From Planctomycetaceae bacterium (lineage in GTDB: Bacteria; Planctomycetota; Phycisphaerae; Sedimentisphaerales; Anaerohalosphaeraceae), in the NCBI GenBank assembly GCA_021372945.1, contig JAJFTK010000123.1:31278-95277 (forward strand): a stretch of DNA of 64,000 nt, given 5' to 3'. Below, one piece after another: positions 10,489 through 25,822 of this stretch (position 1 is its first letter; each line of letters starts with the position of its first letter). The position numbers and the translations under genes were made by a program. Below the pieces are notes generated by a model that was not told the origin of the DNA, searched no databases, and saw nothing but the letters and a program-made list of their open reading frames with translations.

Positions 10489-12585
10489 ATGAGCTCACTG
10501 CACTTGGTGGACCGCGTCATCATCTTTGTTTATTTTGTGTGTCTCGTCGGACTGGGCTTGCATCTTAAGAAAAAGGCTTCCGGCGGGATGGATGACTACT
10601 TCTTGGGCGGACGCCAGTTGCCGTGGTGGGCGTTGGGCATTTCCGGGATGGCCAGTTTTTTGGACCTCACCGGAACGATGATCATCGTTTCCTTTCTATA
10701 CATGATGGGCCCGCGCGGGCTTTTTGTCGAATTTCGCGGGGGAGCGGTGCTCGTGCTGGCGGTGATGATGTTATGGACAGGCAAGTGGCATCGTCGTTCC
10801 GGCTGCATCACCGGCGCCGAGTGGATGGTCTATCGCTTTGGCGACACGCTGGGCGGACGATTTGCCCGTATGTCGGGTGCCCTTGCCGCCATCGTTAGTT
10901 CCGTTGGGATGATCGCTTACCTGATCAAGGGTTCCGGCCTGTTCGTGGCGATGTTTCTGCCGATCTCGCCGGAATGGTGCGCGATCGTCATGATCGGCCT
11001 GGCGACGATTTACATCTTGACCTCGGGTTTTTACGGCGTCGTTTATACGGACATTTTCCAATCGGGCATCATCCTCGTGGCGGTCGTTTTCATCTCGGTG
11101 ATGGCTTTTATGAAGGTAGAAAGCCTGGATCAGATCGCCGCACTGGCCAAAGAGGTTACCGGCCAGGCTGCCTGGACAACTTCTTCGTGCAGTTGGAAAA
11201 CCCCAATGCCTAAGGGCTATGAACAATATAATTTCCTGTTCATCGTCGCGGCGTTCTACCTGTTCAGGAACATCATTTTTGGAATGGGCTCCGGCGGCGA
11301 CCAGCGGTACTTTGGCGCCAAGGACGATAAAGAATGCGGCAAGCTCACCTTCCTGTGGACCAACCTCATGATGTTCCGCTGGCCGATGATGATGGGTTTT
11401 GCGGTGCTGGGTTTGTTCATGGTCAAGAACCTGTTTCCGGACCAGACCGTGCTGGCCGAGGCCGCGACGCTGGTTAAGGCGCAAGTTGGGCAGGTTGACA
11501 AGAGCCGCTGGGCGGAAGTGCTTGCCAGTATCTCCAATTCGCCGCAGAATTTTCCGGCCGAATTCGTGGAGCGATTGCAGGTCCTTTTCGGCGCGGAGTG
11601 GCAGGTCAAAATGCACCTGTTGAGTTATGAAGGGACGATCGATCCCGAGCGGATCCTGCCAGCGGTGATACTCTATAATATGCCGGTGGGGCTCAAGGGC
11701 CTCGTGCTGGTGGCCCTGATCGCGGCGTCGCTGTCGACGTTCGGCTCGATCGTCAACTGGACGATTGGATTTTTCACACGGGATTTTTATCAAGCTTACC
11801 TGCGGCCCAAGGCCTCAAATCAGGAATTATTGAGAGTCAGTTGGATATTCGGATTTGTATTTGTGGTAGCCAGTTTCCTGTTTGCTTATTCCGTAAAGAA
11901 CATCAATGATATCTGGGACTGGTTCATTATGGCGCTGGGCGGAGGACTTGTGATCCCAAGCATCCTGCGCTTCTACTGGTGGCGGTTCAACGGCGGCGGA
12001 TTTGCGATCGGGACAATGGTTGGTCTGATCGGCGCTATCGTTTTTCGAATTGCCCAGGTCTATTACGGTGACGCCAGCCCCCAGATCAGTATGATCCTGA
12101 GCAATCCCGTGCTCCAATTCTTTATTACTGTGCTGATCGGATTGATCGGAACCATCATTGGCACCTATCTGACCCGTCCGACCGACCAGAAGATACTGCA
12201 GCAGTTTTACCGTACGACACGTCCGTTCGGGTTCTGGAAACCGCTTCTGAACACGCTCAGTCCGCAGGTTAGGGCCGAGGTGAAGAAGGAACACATTCGC
12301 GATGTTGTCGCGTTGCCGTTCGCGTTGGCCTGGCAGATTACCTTGTTCCTGCTGCCGATGCTTCTTCTGATCAAGAATTGGTCGGCGTTTTGGATCACGC
12401 TGTCTATCTTTGCGGTTTCGCTGGCGGGTCTTTACTTTATCTGGCTGAGGAAGTGGGGCGAGGAGGTGGTCTTTGAGGGTTCCGTGCAGCCGAGGGCCGC
12501 GCAAATCCTCGACCCGACCGTACCTTCCGAAAAGGCCAAAGCGGCGGTGCACGTGAAGCCTGAAATTGCGGAAGTGAAAAAATGA
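10489..12585 (+). CDS. Sodium:solute symporter family (SSF) transporter
   Basis: Inner-membrane Na+-coupled transporter of 698 residues with about 13 hydrophobic segments. Typical SSF phrases occur near the N-terminus (DYFLGGRQLPWWALGISGMA) and around the fifth to seventh helices (TSGFYGVVYTDIFQSGIIL). Near the middle a soluble stretch of about 75 residues (roughly positions 320-395) separates two helices, and the C-terminus carries an extra soluble tail ending in a Lys/Glu-rich segment. Both make it longer than the usual 500-550 residue SSF protein; such long forms are common in planctomycete sugar loci. TGGAG lies upstream of the start, and the stop overlaps the next start (ATGA). From its neighbours it probably imports mannose or mannosides; the substrate is inferred. 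Confidence 0.92.
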   Translation: MSSLHLVDRVIIFVYFVCLVGLGLHLKKKASGGMDDYFLGGRQLPWWALGISGMASFLDLTGTMIIVSFLYMMGPRGLFVEFRGGAVLVLAVMMLWTGKWHRRSGCITGAEWMVYRFGDTLGGRFARMSGALAAIVSSVGMIAYLIKGSGLFVAMFLPISPEWCAIVMIGLATIYILTSGFYGVVYTDIFQSGIILVAVVFISVMAFMKVESLDQIAALAKEVTGQAAWTTSSCSWKTPMPKGYEQYNFLFIVAAFYLFRNIIFGMGSGGDQRYFGAKDDKECGKLTFLWTNLMMFRWPMMMGFAVLGLFMVKNLFPDQTVLAEAATLVKAQVGQVDKSRWAEVLASISNSPQNFPAEFVERLQVLFGAEWQVKMHLLSYEGTIDPERILPAVILYNMPVGLKGLVLVALIAASLSTFGSIVNWTIGFFTRDFYQAYLRPKASNQELLRVSWIFGFVFVVASFLFAYSVKNINDIWDWFIMALGGGLVIPSILRFYWWRFNGGGFAIGTMVGLIGAIVFRIAQVYYGDASPQISMILSNPVLQFFITVLIGLIGTIIGTYLTRPTDQKILQQFYRTTRPFGFWKPLLNTLSPQVRAEVKKEHIRDVVALPFALAWQITLFLLPMLLLIKNWSAFWITLSIFAVSLAGLYFIWLRKWGEEVVFEGSVQPRAAQILDPTVPSEKAKAAVHVKPEIAEVKK

Positions 12586-13946
12586 GAATTCATCGTAAGA
12601 GTTTTTGGGCTATCGCATTGTTTGGGGCCGTTTGCTCCATCTTACCCGTGTCATGCTGCGCAACGTCAACGATGCCAACGGAATCGGCCGATCTCACGAG
12701 ACAGCAGGCGATCGAAATGACATTAAAATCCTATGATGGTCCGCATGCGGAGGGGACTGACAGGCACACGATGATCGGCAAGGTTCTGACAGGCTACCAG
12801 GGATGGTTTACCTGCCCTGGCGATGGTTCGGGGCGGGGCTGGTTTCATTGGGGCAAGGACGTTTTTGAGCCGGGCAACTGCAAGATCGATATGTGGCCGG
12901 ATATGACCGAGTACGGACCCGACGAACGGTTTGCCACGTCGTTTAAGCATGCCGATGGCAGCACGGCGTACGTCTTTAGTTCCATGCATCCGGCGACGGT
13001 AAACCGTCATTTTAAGTGGATGGCCGATTACGGCATTGACGGCGCGTTCGTTCAGCGTTTTATCACCGAAACACAGCAGCCCAGGTCGCTTTTACATGCG
13101 AACACGGTTTTGGCGAACTGCCGCAGTGCAGCGAATCGAAACGGCCGAGTTTACGCGCTGATGTACGATATTTCCGGCCTGCAGAAAGGGCAGATCGAGT
13201 TAGTGATCCAGGATTGGAAGATGCTCGTGGATCGCATGCGTCTCACTCAGGACCCCAATGACAAGGCGTATCTGCGACATAATGGTAAGCCAGTGATCGC
13301 TGTGTGGGGTATCGGCTTTGAGGGAAGAGACTATACATTGCAGGAATGCGCGGCTCTGGTCGATTTTCTCAAGAACGATAAAACGTACGGCGGACTGACC
13401 GTGATGCTTGGCATCCCAACCTATTGGCGGACGCTCCGGAACGATTCTGTTACGGATCCCTTCCTGCATCAGATCGTCAAGAAGGCCGATGTGCTCAGTC
13501 CCTGGATGGTCGGAAGGGTGAAAAACAAGGCGGACGTCGAAGAATTTGCCTACAATCGCATTTGGAAACCGGACTTGGAATGGTGCAAACAGAACGGTAA
13601 AGACTATCTGCCTGTGGTGTTCCCCGGATTTAGCTGGTACAACCTCAAACAGGACCCATCTACCTTCAATGCCATCCCCCGCAACGGCGGCCGGTTCCTG
13701 TGGGATCAGTACGTGGCGGCCAAAAAGGTGGGCGCCGCGATGGTCTACCAGGCCATGTTCGACGAAGTGGACGAAGGCACGGCGATCTTCAAGGTCACCA
13801 ACGACCCGCCGACCGGCCCATCGAAGTTTCTTACCTATGAAGGACTGCCAAGCGACCACTACTTATGGCTGACCGGACAGGGGGCAAAACTGATCAGGGG
13901 AGAAATTCCGACCGATTTTCCTGAACGAAACCAGCCGCAAAACTGA
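12582..13946 (+). CDS. GH99/GH71-like endo-alpha-mannosidase-type lipoprotein
   Basis: Lipoprotein: basic start, hydrophobic stretch and lipobox LPVSC with Cys at about residue 25, so anchored outside the cytoplasm. The mature part matches the GH99/GH71-like TIM barrel: GYQGWFTCPGDGSGRGWFHW near residue 70, HFKWMADYGIDGAFVQRF, and a C-terminal acidic segment YQAMFDEVDEGTAIFK that corresponds to the catalytic region of such enzymes. Family members cleave internal alpha-mannosyl linkages of mannans or N-glycans. This one would release fragments outside the cell for import by the symporter and trimming by the GH38-like protein. The start overlaps the stop of the transporter gene (ATGA). No terminator was seen after it; the next promoter overlaps its end. 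Confidence 0.85.
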   Translation: MRIHRKSFWAIALFGAVCSILPVSCCATSTMPTESADLTRQQAIEMTLKSYDGPHAEGTDRHTMIGKVLTGYQGWFTCPGDGSGRGWFHWGKDVFEPGNCKIDMWPDMTEYGPDERFATSFKHADGSTAYVFSSMHPATVNRHFKWMADYGIDGAFVQRFITETQQPRSLLHANTVLANCRSAANRNGRVYALMYDISGLQKGQIELVIQDWKMLVDRMRLTQDPNDKAYLRHNGKPVIAVWGIGFEGRDYTLQECAALVDFLKNDKTYGGLTVMLGIPTYWRTLRNDSVTDPFLHQIVKKADVLSPWMVGRVKNKADVEEFAYNRIWKPDLEWCKQNGKDYLPVVFPGFSWYNLKQDPSTFNAIPRNGGRFLWDQYVAAKKVGAAMVYQAMFDEVDEGTAIFKVTNDPPTGPSKFLTYEGLPSDHYLWLTGQGAKLIRGEIPTDFPERNQPQN

Positions 13947-13999: not shown

Positions 14000-16039
14000 A
14001 TGCTTAAACGTATTGTTCTTATACTGGCAGCTCTTTTAGCAACAGTCTGCGTGGCCTTTTGGGTCAGATCAGACAAACCTATCCAACAAGATTTGATTCC
14101 GGAGATTTTGGATATCCGAACTTCCCAAGCAATGATTGTCTGGATATCCGCAGATAGCTATAAAGGCGCTGTGGATTTTTGGCCCGCCGGCAAAGAGCAG
14201 GAACGTATGACCGCTGCCGAAAGCTTCCCAGGCGCTTCCCGCCGGCATGAAGTTAAGCTTACCGGTCTGCGGGCAGGGACGCGTTATATCTACCAGGTCC
14301 AGGGTTCTCAAACCCGCTGCCAGTTCCAGACCCAACCGCCTGTGAATAGTCCTTTTTCATTGCTTCTGCTTTGGGGCGATATGTCTGGCAAATTAACCTC
14401 GCTCTTAAGGTCAGAGGTGCCAGAGTTTGTTGTTACACTGAACCGTGAAGTCGAAGAAGATCAGAAGGATGCCTTTGCGGCCATTCGTCCGTATGTTCCA
14501 GTTTACACGATAGAAGGCGTGGATTCGCCTTTTCTCAAGCTTCTGAACGATTCAAAACAGCAAAAAACCAGGGATCCGTGGTCTCTGGACTGGGCGGGTC
14601 TGCGGCTCATTTTTACAGACAAGACCGATTTTCCGGATGAACTCTTGAATGCGCCGGCTGCACACACGATTGGCTTGATTGTTACTCCGGCAGGGCAAAA
14701 TATAGATATCGAAGCTTTGTCCAAATCGGACTTTCATGATCGCCTGCGGCAGCACAATGGACGATACCCCAACAGCCCCGTGGCGTTTGTTGCCATTGCG
14801 GACCGGCAAGCTGAAGGGGTTCAAACAGACGGCATCAGGTACTTGGGGCCCGGTACGGCAGGGCAGAATGACACCGGGGCGATCCGCATCGATGTCGATG
14901 TCGATTCCGCCAGGGCCGTGCTGCTTGGCGAAAACAAGGAAATTGTCCTCAAGGAACCGCCGCTTGGCGAGAAACTGACCTGTGAGGATTGCCGTCGTTT
15001 GGCCGACAAGGGCGCCTATGAAGCAAGCATCCAAGCGTATCTGAAGTTTATCGAAGCCAACAAAGGACATTTTCAGATTGATGATGCCTATTACGCGATC
15101 GCCGATATCTATGATTTTAAGCTCTTCGAGTTTGAGCAGGCTGTTTCCTGGTACGAACAATTGATCAAGGAATATCCCAACGGCACGCTTGTACCTTTGG
15201 CCAATCAGCGGATCAAGCATATCACCGCTTACTCCGATTTCAGCTACGAACCTTTAACGCGGTTCGAGAGGATCCGTGCCGTGGAGTACGCCCGAAAAAA
15301 AGAGCAGACATCCCAGCGAGATCAATTGCTCGCGAATGTCGAACAATTGATCCGGCAATATCCCGATAGTCGGCTTGCGCCGGTTATGCAGCTTTGGCTT
15401 GCAAATCAATACCGCACCTTCTCACCGGCCAAAGCCGTCGAGGCGTACCTCTTGCTCAAAAAGAATTACGGCCCCAGCGACGAGGCAAAAGAGGCGGCGT
15501 TTGAGATCGGGTCGACCTATTACGATGCCGGGCAGTATCGGCAGGCCATTGCCGCCTTCGAGCAGGCCATGACCGAATTGCCTTCGCTGAGCGATACGAT
15601 CAAAGCCCAGGTCGCGCGCTCTTATCGCAACATTCGGCGAGACTGCATTGCGTACGGCTGCTGGGCAGCCGTTGCGGTGATTGGCTTACTGGCGATTTGC
15701 CTAAAACCCCGGCGTCTGCAAAACGATGTCTTGCTGCATGGGAGCGTGGTCTTTGTTGCGGCGGCGGTGCTGCTGTACGCCGGCGCTTGGATGATCCGAG
15801 AACAGTTCAATTCCGTGCGTGAAATGCATTCGATCGTACTGTTGTTTGCGCTTGCCTCCGGCTTGAGCGCGGCGTGCGCTGTGAAAGTATCTTCAAGCCT
15901 TGTGCAAATGGGCAAAACAAGAAGGCCCTTGATGAGCTTTTTTGCCGGGTGCGGTGCTTCGGTCATTCTGTTTCCTGCGGCGATTTACCTGGCTGTTTAT
16001 TATTCTTATGCGCATTACCTCATTGTAGTACATTTGTGA
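14000..16039 (+). CDS. Membrane protein: Fn3/phosphoesterase-like N-terminus, TPR repeats, four C-terminal TM helices
   Basis: First gene of the radical SAM operon. It has an N-terminal signal anchor, then a fibronectin-like domain of the kind that precedes purple acid phosphatases (GLRAGTRYIYQVQ). Next comes a region that follows the phosphoesterase fold but has lost most metal ligands (LLWGDMSGK, TLNREVEED). Residues from about 330 to 540 hold TPR-type helices, for example AYYAIADIYDFKLFEFEQAV and GSTYYDAGQYRQAIAAFEQA. The last 140 residues hold four hydrophobic segments. The N-terminal half resembles the fusion protein encoded at 17596, and the TPR plus four-TM half resembles the protein at 20135. 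ATG 14000 is used; a TTG at 13994 is possible, since GGGG lies 5 bases before it and 11 before the ATG. A periplasm-facing scaffold is inferred; function unknown. Confidence 0.7.
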   Translation: MLKRIVLILAALLATVCVAFWVRSDKPIQQDLIPEILDIRTSQAMIVWISADSYKGAVDFWPAGKEQERMTAAESFPGASRRHEVKLTGLRAGTRYIYQVQGSQTRCQFQTQPPVNSPFSLLLLWGDMSGKLTSLLRSEVPEFVVTLNREVEEDQKDAFAAIRPYVPVYTIEGVDSPFLKLLNDSKQQKTRDPWSLDWAGLRLIFTDKTDFPDELLNAPAAHTIGLIVTPAGQNIDIEALSKSDFHDRLRQHNGRYPNSPVAFVAIADRQAEGVQTDGIRYLGPGTAGQNDTGAIRIDVDVDSARAVLLGENKEIVLKEPPLGEKLTCEDCRRLADKGAYEASIQAYLKFIEANKGHFQIDDAYYAIADIYDFKLFEFEQAVSWYEQLIKEYPNGTLVPLANQRIKHITAYSDFSYEPLTRFERIRAVEYARKKEQTSQRDQLLANVEQLIRQYPDSRLAPVMQLWLANQYRTFSPAKAVEAYLLLKKNYGPSDEAKEAAFEIGSTYYDAGQYRQAIAAFEQAMTELPSLSDTIKAQVARSYRNIRRDCIAYGCWAAVAVIGLLAICLKPRRLQNDVLLHGSVVFVAAAVLLYAGAWMIREQFNSVREMHSIVLLFALASGLSAACAVKVSSSLVQMGKTRRPLMSFFAGCGASVILFPAAIYLAVYYSYAHYLIVVHL

Positions 16040-16052
16040 CAGGAGATGCTCT

Positions 16053-16883
16053 ATGAAGATGCGTTTTAAACTTGCAGGTGTTTTAGCGATGTTGTTGATT
16101 CCCGCTGCTGTGGCTGCAGACCAGCCTAATGTGCCCGACCAGGCGGCTGCGGAGCAGTACGTCAAAGCAACGAGGGATCTGGCAAGCCGGCGGATTTTTG
16201 AAGTCGGGGGCCGTGAGAAGATCGATTTATTATTTGCCGCGATGCTGCCGGTCATCAACAGTGTGGACGCTTATTACGCAACCGGGTACAAGGATGAGAT
16301 CTCCAAGTCCTTGCAGCAATGCCTGTCAAACACCAACATGGATATCAACCAGCAGATCATCGGCAAAGGCCTGCAGCATGTCACGGTTCAGGCGATCCGG
16401 CGAGAACTGGATATCATGGCCGCCGCTGCCGCCGCCGGGCGCAAGGCCTCCGGCGAGCGGATCAAGATCTACTTCGAACATATCCGCCCGACCTTTGTCC
16501 GCCGGGATAAAGGATTCTTTGGCGACCAAAAGCCGCTCGAAACAGCCGCCGACCAAAGCATTCAACGTCTAATCGATGCACCCGAAACGGAGTTTCTCTC
16601 CGCTTCGCGAGACCTGGAAGATGTTATTGCGCGAACAATTGCCTTGTCGGTCTTGTACGAAGCAGGGGAACTCGAAAAATCGCGCGATACCGACCTTCAT
16701 TTTTGTGATATCAAAAAAACCGAGGCGACGGTGTACTATCGCATTATTCAGTCGCGAATTCAAAGACGCAGTCCCAAAACGAATGAGACCATTTTGGCCA
16801 TGCTCAACGGCAATTACGCCTCGTGGAATGCCGTCGAACTTGAAAAATACATGGTCCGGGGCCTGGCCATTCCACTAAAGTAA
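16053..16883 (+). CDS. Exported alpha-helical protein of unknown function
   Basis: 276 residues with a clear signal peptide ending near VAADQ. The mature part is predicted to be mostly helical, with an Ala-rich stretch (DIMAAAAAAGRKAS) and no Cys pair, metal motif or repeat that I recognise. AGGAGAT lies 6 bases before ATG 16053. It sits between the TPR/TM protein and the first GYNPNSSS peptide, 13 and 3 bases from its neighbours, so it is cotranscribed with them. It may be a periplasmic accessory protein of this operon. No function is assigned. Confidence 0.75.
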   Translation: MKMRFKLAGVLAMLLIPAAVAADQPNVPDQAAAEQYVKATRDLASRRIFEVGGREKIDLLFAAMLPVINSVDAYYATGYKDEISKSLQQCLSNTNMDINQQIIGKGLQHVTVQAIRRELDIMAAAAAAGRKASGERIKIYFEHIRPTFVRRDKGFFGDQKPLETAADQSIQRLIDAPETEFLSASRDLEDVIARTIALSVLYEAGELEKSRDTDLHFCDIKKTEATVYYRIIQSRIQRRSPKTNETILAMLNGNYASWNAVELEKYMVRGLAIPLK

Positions 16884-16886
16884 ACT

Positions 16887-17096
16887 ATGCAGCAGAATAC
16901 GGAAAAAGGCAGAATTCTCCGCGTCAAAACCGGCTATAACCCGAATTCCAGTTCGATCGGCAGCCAGATACCGGCATTTCTTGCTTACGCGGTGGGTACG
17001 GGCGCTCTGGCGGTTTTTATTTCGCAATTGTCCAGTGCCGTGAAGGCGCATCTCGGTCAAAAGAAATCGGCTCCAGATGCGGAGAAGACCAAGTGA
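16887..17096 (+). CDS. Small membrane peptide 1 with GYNPNSSS motif
   Basis: 69 residues. A basic N-terminal part carries GRILRVKTGYNPNSSSIGS at residues 8-26, followed by one hydrophobic segment (PAFLAYAVGTGALAVFISQL) and a polar Lys-rich tail. The same 19-residue block recurs with two differences in the protein at 19884, while the remaining sequence differs, so this block is the conserved functional part. The start follows the previous stop by 3 bases, and the stop overlaps the GTG of the thioredoxin gene. The operon also encodes a radical SAM/SPASM enzyme, so this peptide may be its substrate; that is inference. It lacks Cys and a recognisable leader cleavage site. Confidence 0.78.
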   Translation: MQQNTEKGRILRVKTGYNPNSSSIGSQIPAFLAYAVGTGALAVFISQLSSAVKAHLGQKKSAPDAEKTK

Positions 17097-17599
17097 AGGC
17101 GGCTGTGAGGATAATACCAGCGGTCCTTTTGTGTCTTTGTGCGAGCGGCTGTCGTGACCGTGACCCGGTTGCGAAAAACCAACTGCATGTTCCGGATTTC
17201 CGCCTTGATGCGATCGGGCATGAACGTTTCTATCTGAACGACCATCGCGGCAAGGTTGTGGTGCTTGCGTTTTGGGCTACCTGGTGTCAACCCTGCAAGA
17301 CCGAACTGCTCGAATTGAAGACGCTTGCCGCCGATCTTGAGGATAAAAACGTGGTCGCGGCGGCCGTTTGCACCGATCCTGAAAACGTGAGCGATCTCAA
17401 ATCCGTCGTCGAATCCCTTGAGATCGATTACCCCGTGCTGCTTGACAGTCGGGGCGATCTGTTCAAACGATTGGGCCTGACCGCTGTGCCGACCACGCTG
17501 GTGCTCGATCCCGAAGGCAATACGGTCTTAAAGCGGGAGGGCTTTGATCCTGCGATCATGCAGCAGATTCGCAAAAGTATCGAGCAGCTTACAAAATGA
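17093..17599 (+). CDS. TlpA/ResA-like thioredoxin lipoprotein
   Basis: Periplasm-facing thiol-disulfide protein of 168 residues. It has a lipobox LCASGC, then a thioredoxin fold with the redox motif FWATWCQPCK and the cis-Pro loop TAVPTTLVLD. The AhpC/TSA-like start (VPDFRLDAIG) is typical of TlpA/ResA proteins, which reduce disulfides in cytochrome c or partner proteins. GTG 17093 has GGAGAAG 5 bases upstream and overlaps the stop of the small peptide gene; the stop overlaps the next ATG. The next gene encodes a CcdA/DsbD-type electron conduit, the expected source of electrons for this protein. Confidence 0.9.
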   Translation: MKAAVRIIPAVLLCLCASGCRDRDPVAKNQLHVPDFRLDAIGHERFYLNDHRGKVVVLAFWATWCQPCKTELLELKTLAADLEDKNVVAAAVCTDPENVSDLKSVVESLEIDYPVLLDSRGDLFKRLGLTAVPTTLVLDPEGNTVLKREGFDPAIMQQIRKSIEQLTK

Positions 17600-19887
17600 A
17601 AACGATTCATTATGCCATCCTGTTGACCCTTCTATGCGGTCTGTCTGGGGCTGCAGCGCTGCCCGGATTTACGGCGGGGCCTTACTTGCTGAATGTTACC
17701 ACTAATTCGGCCGTTGTCGCGTTTCATCTTGAAAAGGCTCTCGCGGCCAAGGTGCGGGTTTTCAACGGGACCGATTGGATGGAGTTTGACTCACCTCAGC
17801 CCAGCACATCGCATTTTGTTGAGGTGCACGGGCTGGAGCCGGATTTTACTTATGATTACGAGGTCATCTGCGCCGACGGCATGACGCAAGCTGGGTTGGG
17901 GGATAAAAGTTTCCAGATACGAACCGCCTGCCTGCCCGGGAATTCATTTTCGTTTGCGGTATATGGGGACCCTCGCCCCGGCGACAACCAGACCACACGT
18001 TACCACCAGGAAATCATGAACCAGCTTACGCGGGAAGAGCCGCTCTTTGCGCTGGTGCTGGGCGATATGGTCGATGATGGCAGCCGCGGGGAGCTTTGGC
18101 GGCAATTCTTTGATGTCGAGTCAAACCTGCTTCGCAGAACAGCGGTATATCCGGTGCTGGGTGATAACGATTTCGCCGGCGGCAAGGGACTCTATGGCGA
18201 CTATTTTCCTTCTCTCGAAAAAGGATACTACGGCTTTCAATGGGGCGGCGTCTACTTTTTCGGCCTGCAGGCGTGGGGCACGCGCCAGTCCGGCCAATCC
18301 TTTGGAGCCGACAGCGAGCAGTACAAGTGGCTCGAAAGCGAACTGTCCTCCGCGGCGGCGCAAAGCGCGCCATTCCGAGTGGTCTTTCTCCATGACCCGG
18401 TTTTTATTTCGCGCGGCCGCTCATCGGAGATCCTTCGCCGTGTTTGGGCGCCCTTGTTCGAAAAGTACAAAGTCGATGTCGTGTTCGCCAGTTGGCACAT
18501 GTACGAGCGTTCGATGCACGAGGGCGTCAGTTACATCATCTCCGGCGGTGCCGGCGCCGAGCTGATCTGGATGGATCCCGATCCCATGTATCCTTCACAA
18601 GCCGAAGCGCGGCAATATCATTTCTGCAAGGTGGACGTCAGCTCCAATATGATGACCATCAGCGCGATCACGACTGACCGAACCGTACTGGACAGTATTA
18701 CACTCATGCCGCGGTCGCAGGAACAGCTTGATTCGGGCCTCATGGAACGTGCCGCCAAACGGCTTGGGGCTGAGATGATCATCGAGCCTCAGCCGGGCTG
18801 TCCCCAGGTTCCGATGACGTTCTTTTCAACGGACTGCCTGTATTGTCGAAGGCTTTTGAATCACGACTTGCCTCGATGGGCTGCCGTCAACAACGTCTCT
18901 TTGAAAATAACCTATTTTGATTTGAGCCAGGAAGGCATTTACGATCTCTTCCTCAGCGCAGGAATGGATTTCGGCCGTCAGGATCTGGATGTTCCGGCCA
19001 TCTTCATCGGGCGGCAGGCCTTGGGCGGCCAGGAGCAGATCGACAGCCAATTGCCGCAGGAGCTGCAAGAATTTAAAGAAGATCCCAAGTCCTACGTCGA
19101 GCAGATGATTACGCCATTTTCTAATGTACACGATACAAAAAGCGCTAAGGAAAGCGCCTTTAATGCGCTGACCTTGGGCGTGGTGCTGACCGCGGGATTG
19201 CTGGATGGGATCAACCCATGCGCGTTTACGACGGTGATCCTGCTGATCTCCTACCTGGGCCTGGTCGGCGGCGGACGCAGGCAGATGGTCTATACCGGCA
19301 GTGTCTTTACGGCGGCGGTTTTCATCACGTATTTCATCATCGGCTTGGCATTCTTTGGTTTTATCAAAGTGATCTTGAAGGGTCCGATCTTCGTAACAAT
19401 CGTAAATGCCGCTCTGCTGATCGCCGTTGCCGCACTTGCGTTTTTTTCACTCGTTGATTTTGTCCGCTGCCTGAAAGGAAACCCCAGGGACATGACGCTG
19501 CAACTGCCGGAATTGCTCAAAAACAAGATACGTCAGCGGATCAGGGATTTCGCACGGCATAAGACGGCGGTCCTTGGCGCCGCGTTCGGGTTAGGCGTGA
19601 TGGTGACAGGTATGGAACTGGCCTGCACGGGACAGGTCTATTTGCCCATCATCACAATGATCTCCGAACCAACGCACCGCCTGGCGGCAACAGGCTATCT
19701 GCTTTCGTATAATGCGGCATTTATTATCCCGCTGATCGCCGTCTTTATGCTGACGGTATTTGGAGTGAGTTCGCAAAGGCTGGGTGCTTTTTTTGGCCGG
19801 CGGGTCGCGCTGGTCAAACTCGCTTTGGCGCTGCTGTTTATCGGTATGGGAGTTTTGATCGCTTTTAATATGGGTCTTTTCCAATGA
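17596..19887 (+). CDS. Fusion of degenerate purple-acid-phosphatase-like, thioredoxin-like and CcdA/DsbD transmembrane domains
   Basis: 763 residues. Signal peptide, Fn3-like domain (about 24-110), metallophosphoesterase domain (about 115-360), thioredoxin/glutaredoxin-like domain with DCLYC (about 413-417), and a six-helix CcdA/DsbD membrane domain (about 520-763) with GINPCAF and ELACTGQVY cysteines. In the phosphoesterase part YGDPRPG, GDMVDDG and FLHDPVF are kept. The usual GNH(D/E) reads GDND and the usual GHxH reads SWHM, so catalytic and metal positions are altered and activity is doubtful. The membrane part would pass reducing power from the cytoplasm through its Cys pair to the attached CxxC domain and the TlpA-like lipoprotein. 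ATGA overlaps occur at both ends. I know of no standard family with this full architecture. Confidence 0.85.
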   Translation: MKTIHYAILLTLLCGLSGAAALPGFTAGPYLLNVTTNSAVVAFHLEKALAAKVRVFNGTDWMEFDSPQPSTSHFVEVHGLEPDFTYDYEVICADGMTQAGLGDKSFQIRTACLPGNSFSFAVYGDPRPGDNQTTRYHQEIMNQLTREEPLFALVLGDMVDDGSRGELWRQFFDVESNLLRRTAVYPVLGDNDFAGGKGLYGDYFPSLEKGYYGFQWGGVYFFGLQAWGTRQSGQSFGADSEQYKWLESELSSAAAQSAPFRVVFLHDPVFISRGRSSEILRRVWAPLFEKYKVDVVFASWHMYERSMHEGVSYIISGGAGAELIWMDPDPMYPSQAEARQYHFCKVDVSSNMMTISAITTDRTVLDSITLMPRSQEQLDSGLMERAAKRLGAEMIIEPQPGCPQVPMTFFSTDCLYCRRLLNHDLPRWAAVNNVSLKITYFDLSQEGIYDLFLSAGMDFGRQDLDVPAIFIGRQALGGQEQIDSQLPQELQEFKEDPKSYVEQMITPFSNVHDTKSAKESAFNALTLGVVLTAGLLDGINPCAFTTVILLISYLGLVGGGRRQMVYTGSVFTAAVFITYFIIGLAFFGFIKVILKGPIFVTIVNAALLIAVAALAFFSLVDFVRCLKGNPRDMTLQLPELLKNKIRQRIRDFARHKTAVLGAAFGLGVMVTGMELACTGQVYLPIITMISEPTHRLAATGYLLSYNAAFIIPLIAVFMLTVFGVSSQRLGAFFGRRVALVKLALALLFIGMGVLIAFNMGLFQ

Positions 19888-20138
19888 GTACATTAGATCG
19901 CGAGAAAAATCAGGAAAAGCAAATTGCGCAAGGCCGGATCCTCCGCGTCAAGCAGGGATACAATCCGAATTCGAGTTCCATGGGCTCGATGATATTTATT
20001 CTTCCGGCGTCGTTAATGGCCGTTACCGCCTGTTTCGGCATCGTCTCAGCGGTCATTATGGCCAAAACGCTTAAGCATTCCGATGAAGCCCCCGGCATAC
20101 CCGAGAATACAGACGTACAGAAAGGTAACCCCCAGTGA
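19884..20138 (+). CDS. Small membrane peptide 2 with GYNPNSSS motif
   Basis: 84 residues. A charged N-terminus leads to GRILRVKQGYNPNSSSMGS (residues 17-35), then one hydrophobic segment of about 24 residues (IFILPASLMAVTACFGIVSAV) and a polar tail. Paralogue of the 16887 peptide: the shared block is kept at protein level, while many codons differ at the third position and the rest has diverged, which indicates selection on the motif. The start overlaps the stop of the fusion gene (ATGA), and the stop overlaps the next GTG. Possible radical SAM substrate or small membrane subunit of a complex. Confidence 0.78.
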   Translation: MSTLDREKNQEKQIAQGRILRVKQGYNPNSSSMGSMIFILPASLMAVTACFGIVSAVIMAKTLKHSDEAPGIPENTDVQKGNPQ

Positions 20139-21400
20139 AACATGCCTTTTGCATCCTCGTTCTGATCTGTACCGCGGTTGTCTGGGCGCAAACCGATCCG
20201 GTCGAACAGGCACAATCGTTATTCAAGCAAGGGGATTACCTTGCGGGCATGAATCTGCTGACCGCCGAACTCAACAGCCCCGACGCAGTCAAACAAGCCG
20301 CTGCTTTGGAGGCATTCGCGCGTTACCAGGAAGAACTGGTGGGCAATTACGATTATGCCTTACGGCTTTACCAGAGCATTCTCAAGAACAATCTGCCCAA
20401 GGATGACCCTCTTAAGGCAGACGCCAAAGAACAAATGGCGCGGATCATCGAGCTGAAATCTCGCTATCGGGCCGAGGATGTGCTGCTGCGCAGCTTGCAG
20501 CCGCCGGAGGTGGCCAAGCCGGACCGCTGCGACAGGCAAACCATGCTCCTGCGTTCCATTATGGAAAGCAAACCGGATTACTACAGGAACTACGAAGTGT
20601 TTTATCATCTGGGCCGGCATTACCTTGTGACGCAGGATTATCGCCGATCATGTGAACTGCTCGATCGGGCCCTGCAATTGAAACCGGCCATAAACTTCTA
20701 TCTGCCCTTGCATACGTGCAGAGAAAGGGCGCACCGGCTGTGGGTTCAATCCAATGTTAATAAAGGCTCTTTCATTTCCGTCGGCGTTCTGCTGGCCGTG
20801 ACGATCGTTTCATTTTATGCGGCAAGGCCATGGCGATGGGTGCGCATGCGGCATTTGGCAATTGGGTTTGCAGGTGCGGCGCTGTGGGTCATTGTGTTTG
20901 CGGTCTTCTATAAGCTGACCGCGGCGCGGCAGATCATTCCTGACGAGAGCCAGACGCAGATCAGTATCGTGCCGCCGTTTTATCCCGATTTCGGACCAGG
21001 CAGTCCCTATTGGCATGTGGCTCAAAACCTTTGTATCTATGGGTTGGTCGGCACGCTTGGCGTATTTGTATTTGCTGTCGGGGCCGCAAAATTCAAACGC
21101 AGGTGGATGGCTGTTATGGGCAATGGAATCTTCAGTGTGCTGCTTTTTGGAACGCTTTTGACAATCTTCTACATGTACAACTGTAATGAAAAGAGCGTTT
21201 TCTATTCGGTTGCTCAGCAGGGTTCTTTGGGCAGACTGAATGGCGCCAGTTATTTCGTAAATTATGGGATGGAACCGTATATCCTGACCAATCCCAAGGC
21301 GTATCCGGACCTGGCGCTTGAAAATGTCTCGGATGCTCACATGTACGAGTGGGTTAAACGCTATTGCACGTTTTCAACGCCCGAGAAGGAAAGTAAATAG
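20135..21400 (+). CDS. TPR protein with four C-terminal transmembrane helices
   Basis: 421 residues with a signal peptide (cut near VWAQTD). TPR-type helices follow, for example AQSLFKQGDYLAGMNLL, YDYALRLYQSILK and LGRHYLVTQDYRRSCELLDRAL, then four hydrophobic segments between about residues 215 and 355 and a periplasmic tail. The same arrangement ends the protein encoded at 14000. GTG 20135 overlaps the stop of the second small peptide gene, with AAAGG upstream. It lies directly before the radical SAM gene. It could present or organise the small peptides in the membrane; function unknown. Confidence 0.78.
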   Translation: MKHAFCILVLICTAVVWAQTDPVEQAQSLFKQGDYLAGMNLLTAELNSPDAVKQAAALEAFARYQEELVGNYDYALRLYQSILKNNLPKDDPLKADAKEQMARIIELKSRYRAEDVLLRSLQPPEVAKPDRCDRQTMLLRSIMESKPDYYRNYEVFYHLGRHYLVTQDYRRSCELLDRALQLKPAINFYLPLHTCRERAHRLWVQSNVNKGSFISVGVLLAVTIVSFYAARPWRWVRMRHLAIGFAGAALWVIVFAVFYKLTAARQIIPDESQTQISIVPPFYPDFGPGSPYWHVAQNLCIYGLVGTLGVFVFAVGAAKFKRRWMAVMGNGIFSVLLFGTLLTIFYMYNCNEKSVFYSVAQQGSLGRLNGASYFVNYGMEPYILTNPKAYPDLALENVSDAHMYEWVKRYCTFSTPEKESK

Positions 21401-22588
21401 ATGCAGCATTTGCCAAAAGATAACGCCATCAAGTACCGCTTTGAAAACTTCGGCGGCATCATTGCCGGCGATCAGCCGCCGTTTTTGGTATTCGTGGACA
21501 AGAACTACATGCGGCAGCTTGGGCTGGATGAATCCGTTCTGTGGAATGCGCAGGATGAATCCATCGGCCGTTTATCGGCGCCGACCGAAGTGCATTTCGC
21601 GATCACCAACCGGTGTTCGGTTCGATGTCCGCATTGCTATATGGATGCCGGCGCTCCGGATGAAGGCGAACTGGATACGTCCTCGCTCATGAAGGCGCTC
21701 GATATACTGGCCCAATTGAACGTGTTCCACATCGCGCTCGGAGGCGGTGAAGCCCTCGAACGGGATGACCTTTTCGAGATCGCTCAATATGCCCGGCGAA
21801 AAGGCCTCATACCCAATCTAACCGTTTCCGGCGCCAATCTCACGGCAGCAGTCGCCGAGAAGATGACCGTTTTCGGTCAGGTCAACGTCTCGCTTGACGG
21901 CGTTGGCAGCGTATACAGCGCTTTCAGAGGCAAAGAGATGTTCTCCGCTGCGGATTCCGCTCTCGATGCCCTGATTCAAGCAGGTGTCTCCGCTGGGATC
22001 AACTGCGTTGTCGGTAAACAGAATTTTGAGGGCATTCCAGAACTATTCGAGTATGCCGCCAAAAAGAAAGTCAACGAAATCGAATTCCTGCGTCTGAAAC
22101 CCTCGGGTCGAGGCAGGCAGAAGTACTTCAATGAACGAACGACGGTTCTGCAGAACCGCGCCTTGACGCCCATGCTGGCCGACCTGTCGGACAAATTCAA
22201 GATCGCCGCCAAGATCGATTGTTCGTTTGTGCCTATGTTCTGCTATCATCGTCCGCCGCGCGAATTGCTGCAGGCGATGGCAACCTACGGCTGCGAGGCC
22301 GGCAATGTCCTGCTGGGCATTCGCAGCAACGGCAAGGTGGCAGGCTGTTCGTTCATGCAAAGCAGCGGCCATTCCGTCTTTGATCTGGCGACCGACCCCG
22401 CCTGCCGGCAAGATGCCGACCGTATCGCCGCATGGACGCATGATGCCCCTGAGCCGTGCCGGTCATGCGACTACCTGGATATCTGCAAAGGCGGCTGTCA
22501 CGCGGTTTCTGAATTTGTAACCGGGGACTTTAACGCTGCGGATCCGGATTGCCCGCGGGTGGTCGATTTTCGCAAGGATCAACCATGA
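21401..22588 (+). CDS. Radical SAM/SPASM-domain enzyme, peptide-maturase type
   Basis: 395 residues, cytosolic. CSVRCPHC at about 72-79 gives the CxxxCxxC site for the SAM-cleaving [4Fe-4S] cluster. The C-terminal SPASM-type region has Cys in YGCEAGN, GCSFM, CRSCDYLDICKGGC and DPDC, binding extra clusters as in peptide-modifying enzymes such as PqqE and AlbA. The first 60 residues (KYRFENFGGIIAGDQPPFLVFVD) look like the N-terminal segment of other peptide maturases, which often binds a precursor. The start follows the previous stop directly, with AAGGAAAG upstream, and the stop overlaps the next ATG. The two GYNPNSSS membrane peptides in the same operon are the obvious candidate substrates, but this is inferred from linkage only. 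Confidence 0.9.
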   Translation: MQHLPKDNAIKYRFENFGGIIAGDQPPFLVFVDKNYMRQLGLDESVLWNAQDESIGRLSAPTEVHFAITNRCSVRCPHCYMDAGAPDEGELDTSSLMKALDILAQLNVFHIALGGGEALERDDLFEIAQYARRKGLIPNLTVSGANLTAAVAEKMTVFGQVNVSLDGVGSVYSAFRGKEMFSAADSALDALIQAGVSAGINCVVGKQNFEGIPELFEYAAKKKVNEIEFLRLKPSGRGRQKYFNERTTVLQNRALTPMLADLSDKFKIAAKIDCSFVPMFCYHRPPRELLQAMATYGCEAGNVLLGIRSNGKVAGCSFMQSSGHSVFDLATDPACRQDADRIAAWTHDAPEPCRSCDYLDICKGGCHAVSEFVTGDFNAADPDCPRVVDFRKDQP

Positions 22589-23250
22589 ACGTATGTACAA
22601 AGCAAGAGACAGGTTTGAAGCCTGTCGCGCAAAAACATTTTAATTTTACCGGCACATTATTCACCGTGGTCGTATCGGTCGGGTTCGTCTGGGCGGCAGC
22701 AGAATGGTTTGCGCTGGCGGGCGGACCGAAAAACGAATTGCAGACAAGTACCGCTTCGGACGCGCCGAAGGCATACTTCAATCTAAAATCTATTTCGCAG
22801 GCTCAAAGCGAATACATCAAGACCGATTGGGACAAAGACGGCAAAAAGACGTATGCCGGATATTACACGCATTTGTGGACCAGCGTGGACCTTCAAAGCA
22901 ATCCCATTTTGATCGACCTGCTCCCGCGTAAACTGGCCTTTGCGATCGACCCTGCCCGGGCGATTGACAATTACTATTTTGTTAATCTGCAGGATCGAAG
23001 CATCCCGACAACCGGCGAGATCAAGCCTTTGGATTACGAAAAGGAATGGGCTGTTATGGCGGCTCCGCTGGGCGACGGCAGGGCGGAAATGCTGCATCTG
23101 CTGGCAGACAGTTCCGGCCGCATTTACGCCAAATTCGCCCGTTATGCCGCAACGCAGTACATTGATGACCCCGCCGCAAACGGCTGGACGGTTATTGACT
23201 CTTTGGAACAACTGGTCAATATCCAAAAACAGCAAACATCCGCAAAATAG
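22585..23250 (+). CDS. Single-TM exported protein, last gene of the radical SAM operon
   Basis: 221 residues from ATG 22585, which overlaps the previous stop (ATGA) and has AAGGATC upstream. An in-frame TTG at 22549 would lie inside the radical SAM gene. One N-terminal hydrophobic anchor (about 24-46) is followed by a soluble domain containing SISQAQSEYIKTDWDKDGKKTY and YYFVNLQDRSIP. That pattern, early A/S-Q-(S/Y)-x-Y followed by Asp-rich DxDxxGxxxY and a later Y-x-Y-F-V, resembles globular domains of planctomycete pseudopilin-like proteins, but no prepilin cleavage motif is present. Role in the operon unknown. Confidence 0.72.
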   Translation: MNVCTKQETGLKPVAQKHFNFTGTLFTVVVSVGFVWAAAEWFALAGGPKNELQTSTASDAPKAYFNLKSISQAQSEYIKTDWDKDGKKTYAGYYTHLWTSVDLQSNPILIDLLPRKLAFAIDPARAIDNYYFVNLQDRSIPTTGEIKPLDYEKEWAVMAAPLGDGRAEMLHLLADSSGRIYAKFARYAATQYIDDPAANGWTVIDSLEQLVNIQKQQTSAK

Positions 23251-23480: not shown

Positions 23481-23512
23481 GCAGTCTTGCACGAACTTAG
23501 AGGAGTGTTGTG

Positions 23513-24043
23513 GTGGGCATACAGGAACTTAAAAGCGAGCAGTTTTTCCGCCTCTATAATGCCGCCCAGAAAAGGGTTTATGCATACCTTTTAATGCTAG
23601 TACATAACCAGAACGATGCCGACGACTTATTTCAGGAAACGGCCAGTGTTCTCTGGGAGCGCTTCGACGAATTCGATAAGACAGGCAGTTTTGCCGCTTG
23701 GGGCATCGGCATTGCACGTAACAAGGCCTTTGATTTTCTCAAGTCCAAGCAGACCTCGCGGCCCTTATTCGATGACAGTTTTTACAGGGACATCTCGGAA
23801 ATTGCAGCCGCCCAAACCGCCGAAACCGACAGGCGTCTAAAAGCCCTGCAGGATTGCAGCAAGAAGATGTCCGTCCAGAATCAGCGGTTGATCCACCTGC
23901 GTTTCGAGCAGGGGGTTACGGTCAAGAAGATCTCGCAGATATCCGAGTTTTCGGCCGATGCCATTTATAAAAGGTTGTCGCGCATCTATACCGCTCTGCA
24001 CGATTGCATCGACCGCACGATGCTCCAATGGGAGAGGACCTGA
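23513..24043 (+). CDS. ECF-type RNA polymerase sigma factor (planctomycete/verrucomicrobial subfamily)
   Basis: About 176 residues. Region 2 is recognisable in AYLLMLVHNQNDADDLFQET and AWGIGIARNKAFDFLK. Region 4 is recognisable in LIHLRFEQGVTVKKISQI followed by a helix-turn-helix (SADAIYKRLSRIYTALHDCI). This order and length match ECF sigma factors expanded in Planctomycetes and Verrucomicrobia. GTG 23513 has GAGGAG 7 bases upstream; GTG 23510 is only 4 bases from it and less likely. The stop overlaps the start of the FecR-like gene by one base (TGATG), so the pair is translationally coupled. It probably directs transcription of a surface or polysaccharide gene set, perhaps the alpha-glucan genes that follow. 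Confidence 0.88.
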   Translation: MGIQELKSEQFFRLYNAAQKRVYAYLLMLVHNQNDADDLFQETASVLWERFDEFDKTGSFAAWGIGIARNKAFDFLKSKQTSRPLFDDSFYRDISEIAAAQTAETDRRLKALQDCSKKMSVQNQRLIHLRFEQGVTVKKISQISEFSADAIYKRLSRIYTALHDCIDRTMLQWERT

Positions 24044-25764
24044 TGCGTACCGAGCAGGCGATCATCAATGAGCTGCTTTTCAGGCTGCTGGATAACGAGA
24101 TCACGGACCAGGATTTCGCCCGCCTGAAGAATTGGGTCAATTCGGATCCAGCGGCAAAAGATTACTACTGCCGTTTCATGACCGATTACAGCACGCTATC
24201 CATGCGGCCCATAACGGGCATTCAGGAGGCCGATTCGTTGTTCCTGCAGGAGGAATTGCTGGATCGCAATTTCTGGACGCTCATGTCGGAGGAAGAGGAA
24301 AGCGCCCCCGGCATAGAGCCGTCGGCTGCGCCGCCGGTTCAAGCGGCGCCCATTGCCAAGGTCCACCGGAGCCGCGTCGTGCGAACCGTTAATAAGACAT
24401 CGCTTGCCGTGGCGGTTGCCTCCATGGCAGCCCTTTGCCTGTTGGTCTGTTATGTCCACCTTTCCGGGCCCGCCCCTTACGAAGTGGCAACGCTGGTCGA
24501 CTGCATGGATGCCGAATGGTCATCCGATCTTAGGCTGCGGCCCGGCGCTCGAATCTGCTCCAACATCAAGCCCATCCGCCTGACCGGCGGTATCGTCAAG
24601 CTCGTAACCGATGACAACGTACAAGTCGTGCTCGAAGCCCCGACGGAATTTCACTTTGTGTCCTATTCCGAGATCGCTCTCGGTTACGGCAAATTGTTCG
24701 CCAATGTCTCGGAGCAGGGCCGGGGATTTCTCGTGGCCGCTCCAAACGCCAGGATCGTTGACCTGGGTACCGAGTTCAGCGTGCTTTCACACCTTGACGG
24801 CAACACGGAAGTGCACATGTACAAGGGCACGGCCAACTTGTTCAGCGGCCACAAGAATGAAATAAAAACGTCGCAGATCTTGTCAGCCGGGTCAGCCAGA
24901 CAGATCGAGCGTGCGGATTCGACGGTGAGGGAAATTGCGCTGCAGCGCGATCTGGTGGTCCGGCAGATCGATTCCACGGCCGCGTTTGCCTGGCGGGGGC
25001 AGCCGCTTGATCTGGCGGATATTGTCGGCGGAGGCTCCGGATTCGGCACGGGAAGGCTCGATCGCGGACTGGACCCGCTCAGCGGCCGCACGGTCGAGTC
25101 GCTCCGCACGACTGACGTCTATGCCGCGCCGGCAGGCTATCTGCGGGCCGTAGAAAACGCTTTCATAGACGGCGTGTTTGTCCCCGCAAACGCGCAAGCC
25201 GCGTCACAAATTACCTCCACCGGCCTGGTGGCGAACTTCCCACGCACCTCCGGTAAGGTGTGGGGCTATGTTTTCAATGGGGCCTGGCATGAGAGCTTTG
25301 ATGCGCCGCATCATAATCTGCAGCTCGACGGCAAGATTCTGGACGGTAGGAATAATCCTGCGATCGCGATGCATTCCAACCTGGGGATCACGTACGATCT
25401 GGCGGCCATCCGCCGGTCGCTGCCGCAACTGAGGATCAAATCGTTCTGTGCCTCCTACGGCATTTCCGAAACAGTTGACAACTGGCTCAAAGCCGCCGCA
25501 TTCGAGGGGGCGACTGCGAGTCTTGAATTCGACAGGCTCGCCGCTGTGCGCCGGTCCGCCGCGGAGTTTTGGGTTTTTCTCGATGGCAAGAACGTGCTGC
25601 ATGACCGGCGCCTGAGCGGCGGCAAAAGCGGTTCCTTGAACATCCCGATCGATGACGGAGCGCGTTTTCTGACGCTGGCAGTAACCGAATCGGATGATAC
25701 GTTTATGTTTGACTGGGCGGTATTCGTGCAGCCCGAACTGAATTTAGAGTTAACAGGAAAATAG
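24043..25764 (+). CDS. FecR-domain anti-sigma/transducer protein with carbohydrate-binding-like C-terminus
   Basis: 573 residues. The N-terminal cytoplasmic part (ELLFRLLDNEITDQDFARL) resembles the anti-sigma segment paired with ECF factors. One TM helix lies near residues 112-132. A FecR domain follows (VKLVTDDNVQVVLEAPTEF, LGTEFSV, EVHMYKGTANL). The C-terminal 200 residues look like an NPCBM- or jelly-roll-type carbohydrate-binding domain (AWHESFDAPHHNLQLDGKIL, GITYDLAAIR, EFWVFLDGK, FLTLAVTES). ATG 24043 is chosen because GGGAGAGGA lies 5 bases upstream and it overlaps the sigma stop. By analogy with FecR systems it should hold and release the sigma factor in response to an outside signal; the C-terminal domain suggests that signal is a glycan. 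Confidence 0.82.
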   Translation: MRTEQAIINELLFRLLDNEITDQDFARLKNWVNSDPAAKDYYCRFMTDYSTLSMRPITGIQEADSLFLQEELLDRNFWTLMSEEEESAPGIEPSAAPPVQAAPIAKVHRSRVVRTVNKTSLAVAVASMAALCLLVCYVHLSGPAPYEVATLVDCMDAEWSSDLRLRPGARICSNIKPIRLTGGIVKLVTDDNVQVVLEAPTEFHFVSYSEIALGYGKLFANVSEQGRGFLVAAPNARIVDLGTEFSVLSHLDGNTEVHMYKGTANLFSGHKNEIKTSQILSAGSARQIERADSTVREIALQRDLVVRQIDSTAAFAWRGQPLDLADIVGGGSGFGTGRLDRGLDPLSGRTVESLRTTDVYAAPAGYLRAVENAFIDGVFVPANAQAASQITSTGLVANFPRTSGKVWGYVFNGAWHESFDAPHHNLQLDGKILDGRNNPAIAMHSNLGITYDLAAIRRSLPQLRIKSFCASYGISETVDNWLKAAAFEGATASLEFDRLAAVRRSAAEFWVFLDGKNVLHDRRLSGGKSGSLNIPIDDGARFLTLAVTESDDTFMFDWAVFVQPELNLELTGK

Positions 25765-25822
25765 AATTAGAAAAATGCGGCGTTGCAATGAGCAAATAAT
25801 AAGAATTCAGGAAAGGAGTAGT

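Follow-up and report, generated by a model that had tools for sequence, protein, structure and literature searches.

What does a radical S-adenosylmethionine (SAM) enzyme do in an operon that also encodes two short membrane peptides? The question is raised by nine genes at 14000-23250 of a 64,000-nucleotide stretch of DNA from a Planctomycetaceae bacterium (GenBank assembly GCA_021372945.1, contig JAJFTK010000123.1, positions 31,278 to 95,277, forward strand), here called the window. The initial annotation read them as an operon in which a radical SAM/SPASM enzyme modifies two peptides with the motif GYNPNSSS and thiol-redox proteins then act on these peptides. Our analysis shows that the real unit is the enzyme together with a family of membrane peptides carrying G-x-x-[PA]-N-[SC]-S-S-x-G, commonly beside tetratricopeptide repeat (TPR) proteins, and that this is a variant of the radical SAM-peptide kind of system. 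We consider it somewhat probable that the locus serves to mature small integral-membrane peptides: the enzyme would act on the motif, and the peptide would then remain in the membrane, next to the TPR proteins. Loci and genomes are cited below by our own L and G numbers.

The family motif is broader than GYNPNSSS. In 90 loci, 99 distinct domains found with a hidden Markov model (HMM) share G-x-x-[PA]-N-[SC]-S-S-x-G ahead of a single transmembrane (TM) segment. Position 1 is Gly in all 99 domains, position 4 Pro or Ala (76/23), position 5 Asn in 98, position 6 Ser or Cys (75/24), positions 7 and 8 Ser in 99 each, and position 10 Gly in 98; Tyr occupies position 2 in 42 of the 99 and is thus not conserved. 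The conserved element of the peptides is this motif and not the TM segment. All HMM domains of the 90 loci entered the alignment, unfiltered for the motif; it replaces an earlier count of 89 peptides whose regular expression fixed most motif positions. At the DNA level, a degenerate GYNPNSSS pattern matched twice in the window's own genome (backward control, 0) and once more in 294 genomes of the phylum, in G071, without a TM segment or context; the backward control also matched once in the same 294 genomes (G171), so that this lone match is at chance level. A first peptide HMM found the peptide in 12 of 188 genomes in the phylum of L013's genome. A broader HMM, built from 36 peptides, found it in 63 of 192 genomes of one Myxococcota class (NCBI rank; the class of G1171, which includes L013's genome), and in the phylum of L011's genome in 2 of 198, namely that genome and one 22.3-bit match with internal stops.

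The enzyme belongs to the radical SAM/SPASM superfamily, with the CX3CX2C motif (Cys 72, 76 and 79) and SPASM cysteines present; Cys 274, 298, 316, 353, 356, 362, 366 and 384 are also invariant. The SPASM model TIGR04085 is above cut-off in L090 and L085 and is not among the 25 listed matches for the window enzyme. An N-terminal segment of ~50 residues is conserved; an RRE/PqqD domain would be expected at the N-terminus of a peptide maturase, and Pfam gave no PqqD match at E<=1. An enzyme HMM from 24 sequences, with which 61 genomes were searched, separates family members (at least 413 bits) from other SPASM proteins (at most 172); in G630 the gene is split over two contigs, at 416 and 220 bits.

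A search for peptides occurring widely without the enzyme, an outcome at odds with the initial annotation, instead gave a family enzyme in 61 of the 63 peptide-positive genomes of the Myxococcota class. None was found in 36 peptide-negative genomes, which comprised 16 from the same genus or family as the window's genome and 20 genomes of that class, the first 20 listed of its 129 without a peptide match. Fisher's test of the 61/63 against these 20 class controls, in which relatedness is ignored, gives p ~3e-17. Ten of twelve stretches around divergent peptides (L081-L092) carry a related enzyme, L081 and L084 having none; eight of the ten enzymes lie no more than 100 nt from a co-directional peptide, two of them fused to it, and the others lie 1.9 kb away in L083 and 0.7 kb away on the opposite strand in L090. 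Among 60 additional stretches, 42 bear a radical SAM enzyme. For 21 genomes in which it was missing or partial on the peptide's stretch, or which had a second such peptide, a family enzyme was found in the genome in 19.

Enzyme and peptide are also joined physically. They form one stop-free open reading frame (ORF) in L089, L092, L169 and L170, which is 4 of 62 peptide-enzyme pairs, separate genes being the rule. The fusions fall in three separate places of the enzyme tree, with L089 and L092 as sisters, and the closest relative of L170, L173, is unfused, which suggests that fusion had more than one origin. For the trees, 63 enzymes scoring >250 bits and 250 residues or longer were taken from 83 loci; 62 of these enzymes have a peptide no more than 2.5 kb away. 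One branch parts the enzymes of Ser-motif peptides (43) from those of Cys-motif peptides (19), with support of 98 in a quick tree and 99/98 in a careful one. Three enzyme positions, 113, 228 and 275, vary by clade; at 275, one clade has Ser throughout and the other Ala in 89% of its members. Through co-occurrence, fusion and the matched tree, the proposed link of enzyme and peptides holds, and more widely than described.

The peptide is predicted to lie N-out/C-in, with the motif at the outer face. A Lys/Arg excess was found on the C-side of the TM segment in 81 of 88 peptides, with 7 equal and 0 reversed (TM and charge counts use the 89-peptide set), and the fused enzyme, which must be cytosolic, is also on the C-side. 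Together these would place the motif outside, so that modification would precede membrane insertion.

The commonest core outside the window-type operon is a TPR protein, the peptide and the enzyme. The counts cover loci in which the enzyme gene follows the peptide gene in the same orientation, at no more than 2.5 kb and with enough flank. Of these, 27 of 43 have a TPR protein on the upstream side of the peptide, at most 2.5 kb away, and 0 of 39 have one downstream of the enzyme. In six loci (L081, L131, L132, L160, L161 and L162) the peptide comes third, after co-directional tatT and dctP genes of a tripartite ATP-independent periplasmic (TRAP) transporter, and in five of the six dctQM runs divergently; Pfam scores of representatives are TAtT 270.6, DctP 124.6 and DctM 229.6 bits. 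Five of these six genomes have the enzyme elsewhere, so it can be unlinked yet present. TatT of TPAT-type TRAP transporters (TatT-DctP-DctQM) has TPR-like helices, and the part of the description in PMC5812351 consulted here mentions neither a peptide nor a radical SAM enzyme. Some loci, mostly of the Cys type and also Ser-type L082 and L086, add further genes: of 71 loci, 10 have m4, a four-helix membrane protein with invariant His, 8 have a phosphoesterase (the fusion-type proteins of L083 and L125 included) and 5 have a porin-like protein, weak members being labelled by HMM only. A conserved four-TM protein with invariant His residues near the enzyme in L086, L089, L090 and L092 is weakly COX15-CtaA-like and may be a heme protein. 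In addition, the large genomes behind L229 (G1414) and L230 (G1405) have two peptides and two family enzymes each; next to the second enzyme is a weak m4 match (28-29 bits), and its stretch bears no peptide. In 12 of 18 stretches (L215-L225 and L231), a peptide-unlinked enzyme gene precedes a co-directional Kinase-PPPase (PF03618) gene.

In the window, the unit is embedded in the following genes:

g1: 14000..16039, + strand; N-terminal signal or TM segment, degenerate PapN-phosphoesterase-like region, TPR with an invariant CxxC, four C-terminal TM segments
g2: 16053..16883, + strand; exported all-helical protein, lipoprotein-like in relatives
peptide A (pepA): 16887..17096, + strand; 69 aa, one TM segment, motif GYNPNSSSIG
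TlpA/ResA-like thioredoxin: 17093..17599, + strand; WCQPC
fusion: 17596..19887, + strand; PapN-metallophosphoesterase (non-canonical metal site), thioredoxin-like CLYC and CcdA-like membrane domain
peptide B (pepB): 19884..20138, + strand; 84 aa, one TM segment, motif GYNPNSSSMG, old paralogue of A
TPR-4TM protein: 20135..21400, + strand; signal peptide, TPR, four C-terminal TM segments
radical SAM/SPASM enzyme: 21401..22588, + strand; CX3CX2C and eight invariant C-terminal Cys
g9: 22585..23250, + strand; N-terminal TM segment, putative type IV pilin-like fold

All nine were confirmed in frame on one strand, overlapping or nearly abutting as first described: successive gaps from g1 to g9 are 13, 3, -4, -4, -4, -4, 0 and -4 nt, and the start of g9 overlaps the stop of the enzyme gene. 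ATG starts were taken for g1 (14000) and g9 (22585), and the upstream TTGs of the ORF list were not used. Pfam bears out four of the domain labels first given, namely Radical_SAM in the enzyme (48.7 bits, cut-off 29.5), AhpC-TSA for the TlpA-like thioredoxin (83.1, cut-off 26), Metallophos for the phosphoesterase (37.9, cut-off 21.5) and TPR_8 in g1 (35.3, cut-off 25.7). The second TPR protein is slightly below cut-off (TPR_2, 24.9 vs 27). The CcdA label fared less well: the fusion gave no Pfam match to CcdA at E<=1, and the call rests on NF040495 at E 0.088 and on NPC and ACTGQ cysteines. By hydropathy, each of the two TPR proteins, g1 included, has an N-terminal segment and four TM segments, and each peptide has one TM segment. 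Both peptides, g2 and g9 have no Pfam or NCBIfam family above cut-off, and the whole set, as first stated, has no naming model in Pfam, NCBIfam or PADLOC. The AF2 model of g2 (mean pLDDT 89.9) has no clear fold match. For g9, comparison of the predicted fold suggests a type IV pilin, and Foldseek alone gave no match at E<=0.001, with barnase-type RNases top-ranked. A type IV pilin is recognized by a prepilin cleavage motif with Glu5. No such motif was seen in the alignment of g9 relatives, and g9 was rejected as a true type IV pilin, with which its fold alone agrees.

As a unit the operon is real, and it is one elaborate form of the system. A scan of genome contigs with the window enzyme gave 20 loci, of which 11 (L004-L014) are close, at 58-68% identity, and the remaining nine at 24-31%; the close loci come from Planctomycetota, Bacteroidales, Desulfobacteraceae, Proteobacteria, Deltaproteobacteria and Delongbacteria. 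The full nine-gene order recurs in L011 and L060 (genome G719), neither of them a Planctomycetota locus. The window order is kept with g2 absent in L005 and L010, g1 is inverted and relocated in L008, and the enzyme gene is placed first in L013 and L125. At L009:1123-1807, unlike in the sister locus L008, g2 is followed by peptide B with no peptide A, TlpA or fusion gene in between, through real loss or an assembly gap. The peptide is present in all 11 genomes behind L004-L014, and both A and B, assigned from sequence, in 12 of 14 operon-type genomes (those 11, G000, G719 and G1305). Peptides A and B form two old groups (24-row tree, one change, support 99). In G628 (L065:1883-2068) there is a third motif peptide, GYNPNSSSVG, with a different TM segment, besides A and B; its 9.7 kb contig bears no enzyme gene.

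The distribution of the operon is patchy. With centre genomes included, it occurs in 4 of 348 genomes of the window's class (the window's own and the species of L006, L008 and L009). The order of L011's genome has it in 2 of 146 genomes, the order of L010's in 1 of 198, the phylum of L014's in 1 of 13 and the class of L012's in 2 of 192. Upstream of the operon (10489-13946) lie a GH99-family gene (Pfam) and a gene resembling, by eye, a sodium/solute symporter, common only to the window and L005 among the close loci compared and not part of the system. After it (23510-27334) come genes that, judged by eye, may encode an ECF-type sigma factor, a FecR-like protein and a dockerin-like exported protein.

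In the favoured explanation, the cytosolic enzyme would recognize the N-terminal segment G[RK][IV]L.[VI]K.G of the peptide and then modify the adjoining turn G-x-x-[PA]-N-[SC]-S-S-x-G, most likely at the Ser/Cys and its neighbours. The peptide would insert N-out/C-in, bringing the modified motif to the outer face of the cytoplasmic membrane, and, without being released, would work there alongside an extracytoplasmic TPR protein as its modified accessory subunit. In the window, the old paralogues A and B would serve the two TPR-4TM proteins, with which g9, as a pilin-fold anchor protein, and g2, the exported helical protein, may also work. The TlpA/thioredoxin unit probably manages the CxxC of g1.

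Several observations weigh against this explanation. The HMM that gathered the 99 domains was itself built from motif-bearing peptides, and the invariance of the motif could reflect binding instead of modification. No enzyme was found in G1340 and G1383, 2 of the 63 peptide-positive genomes, the peptide of G1383 being at a contig edge, and G625 and G630 have peptide B with no peptide A found. The fusion ORFs contain internal start codons, and the tree has just one Ser/Cys switch, which is an association only and not repeated co-variation. No TPR gene lies upstream in 16 of the 43 loci, and the TPR HMMs were partly built from such loci. Another point comes from anSME (PDB 4k36-4k39), an anaerobic sulfatase-maturating enzyme that has SPASM cysteines in common with the window enzyme at 66.4-66.7 bits only. 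anSME accepts both Ser and Cys, which recalls the Ser/Cys alternation of the peptide motif. Its catalytic Asp is, we assume, the residue after the SPASM-strand Cys; the anSME Cys-Asp aligns here with a Cys-Ser (Ser317) that is at least 97% invariant in the family, so an anSME-like reaction is not supported. Pfam found no sulfatase among the nine genes.

The alternative that survives best is that the peptide is a membrane anchor or recognition subunit of the enzyme, whose true substrate is another partner such as the TPR protein. The natural fusions would tether the enzyme to the membrane, the motif is invariant with no known chemistry, and the commonest neighbour is a TPR protein. Nevertheless, peptides outnumber enzymes, with two for one enzyme in the operon and the TRAP-operon peptides away from the enzyme gene, conservation sits in the motif and not in the TM segment, and the Ser/Cys state of the motif follows the enzyme clade. 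We regard this alternative as unlikely.

Less probable still is that the peptides are precursors of a released product, either a ribosomally synthesized and post-translationally modified peptide or a redox cofactor such as pyrroloquinoline quinone (PQQ) or mycofactocin, from which the modified core is cut out. MftC (mycofactocin) and PqqE, enzymes of the same superfamily that have a small conserved peptide partner, are among the nearest curated models, and the motif core is invariant across phyla. The window enzyme scores 145.6 bits against TIGR03962 (MftC; cut-off 265) and 99.2 against TIGR02109 (PqqE; cut-off 381.35), its best PDB match is PqqE (6c8v), and it scores 119.2 bits against GeoRSP (TIGR04303; cut-off 400). 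Relatives are likewise below the TIGR03962 cut-off, at 172.3 (L011), 138.7 (L083), 128.4 (L085), 111.6 (L089) and 100.5 bits (L090). Unlike in the MftC and PqqE systems, however, the peptides here span the membrane, fused forms occur and the context is one of TPR proteins. The TM segment after the motif, the enzyme fusions and the membrane partners speak against release, and no peptidase model is above cut-off in the nine window genes (two, at E 0.068 and 0.24, are far below). Fused borosin precursors of the OphMA type likewise hold peptide and modifying enzyme in one polypeptide, according to the part of PMC8429565 consulted here, with an enzyme class unrelated to radical SAM.

The first reading, in which a periplasmic thiol-redox relay processes the modified peptides, appears very improbable. 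In its favour, TlpA and the thioredoxin/CcdA-like fusion are encoded between peptides A and B, each gene overlapping the next by 4 nt. Against it, Ser-type motifs contain no Cys, both CcdA-like cysteines, though present in the window copy, are found in only four of nine operon copies aligned, and TlpA was found among the divergent stretches only in L083, plus one 14-bit match in L148. The nine copies are operon-type fusions, those of L064, L067 and L125 being left out; for the cysteines L062 was read in part, and L005 has no such domain. From the sequences, the relay looks accessory, and the CxxC of g1, invariant in 9 of 9 aligned, is likelier to be the redox partner of the TlpA/thioredoxin unit than the peptides are. 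The metal site of the fusion phosphoesterase is non-canonical (GDND, SWH) in all nine copies. It thus departs from GNH[DE] and GHxH, which we take to be the metal motifs of purple acid phosphatase-like phosphoesterases. Canonical motifs are present in four stand-alone phosphoesterases (L082, L089, L090 and L166), and L083 differs again.

A membrane-retained role is, to our knowledge, not established for peptides modified by radical SAM enzymes. It is possible, if doubtful, that the peptide is a portable 'prosthetic peptide' of the membrane, matured by the enzyme and not released, with which one cytosolic enzyme supplies different extracytoplasmic TPR machines in trans, including TRAP transporters, the phosphoesterase/porin set and the redox-pilin assembly of the window. 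If so, TRAP transporters in some bacteria would carry an unrecognised modified subunit. The enzyme-peptide pair itself has no name in the libraries searched; its peptide occurs in about a third of the sampled genomes of one Myxococcota class and is scattered in other phyla, and its N-[SC]-S-S core, natural fusions and Ser/Cys split provide testable predictions on the substrate and the site of modification.

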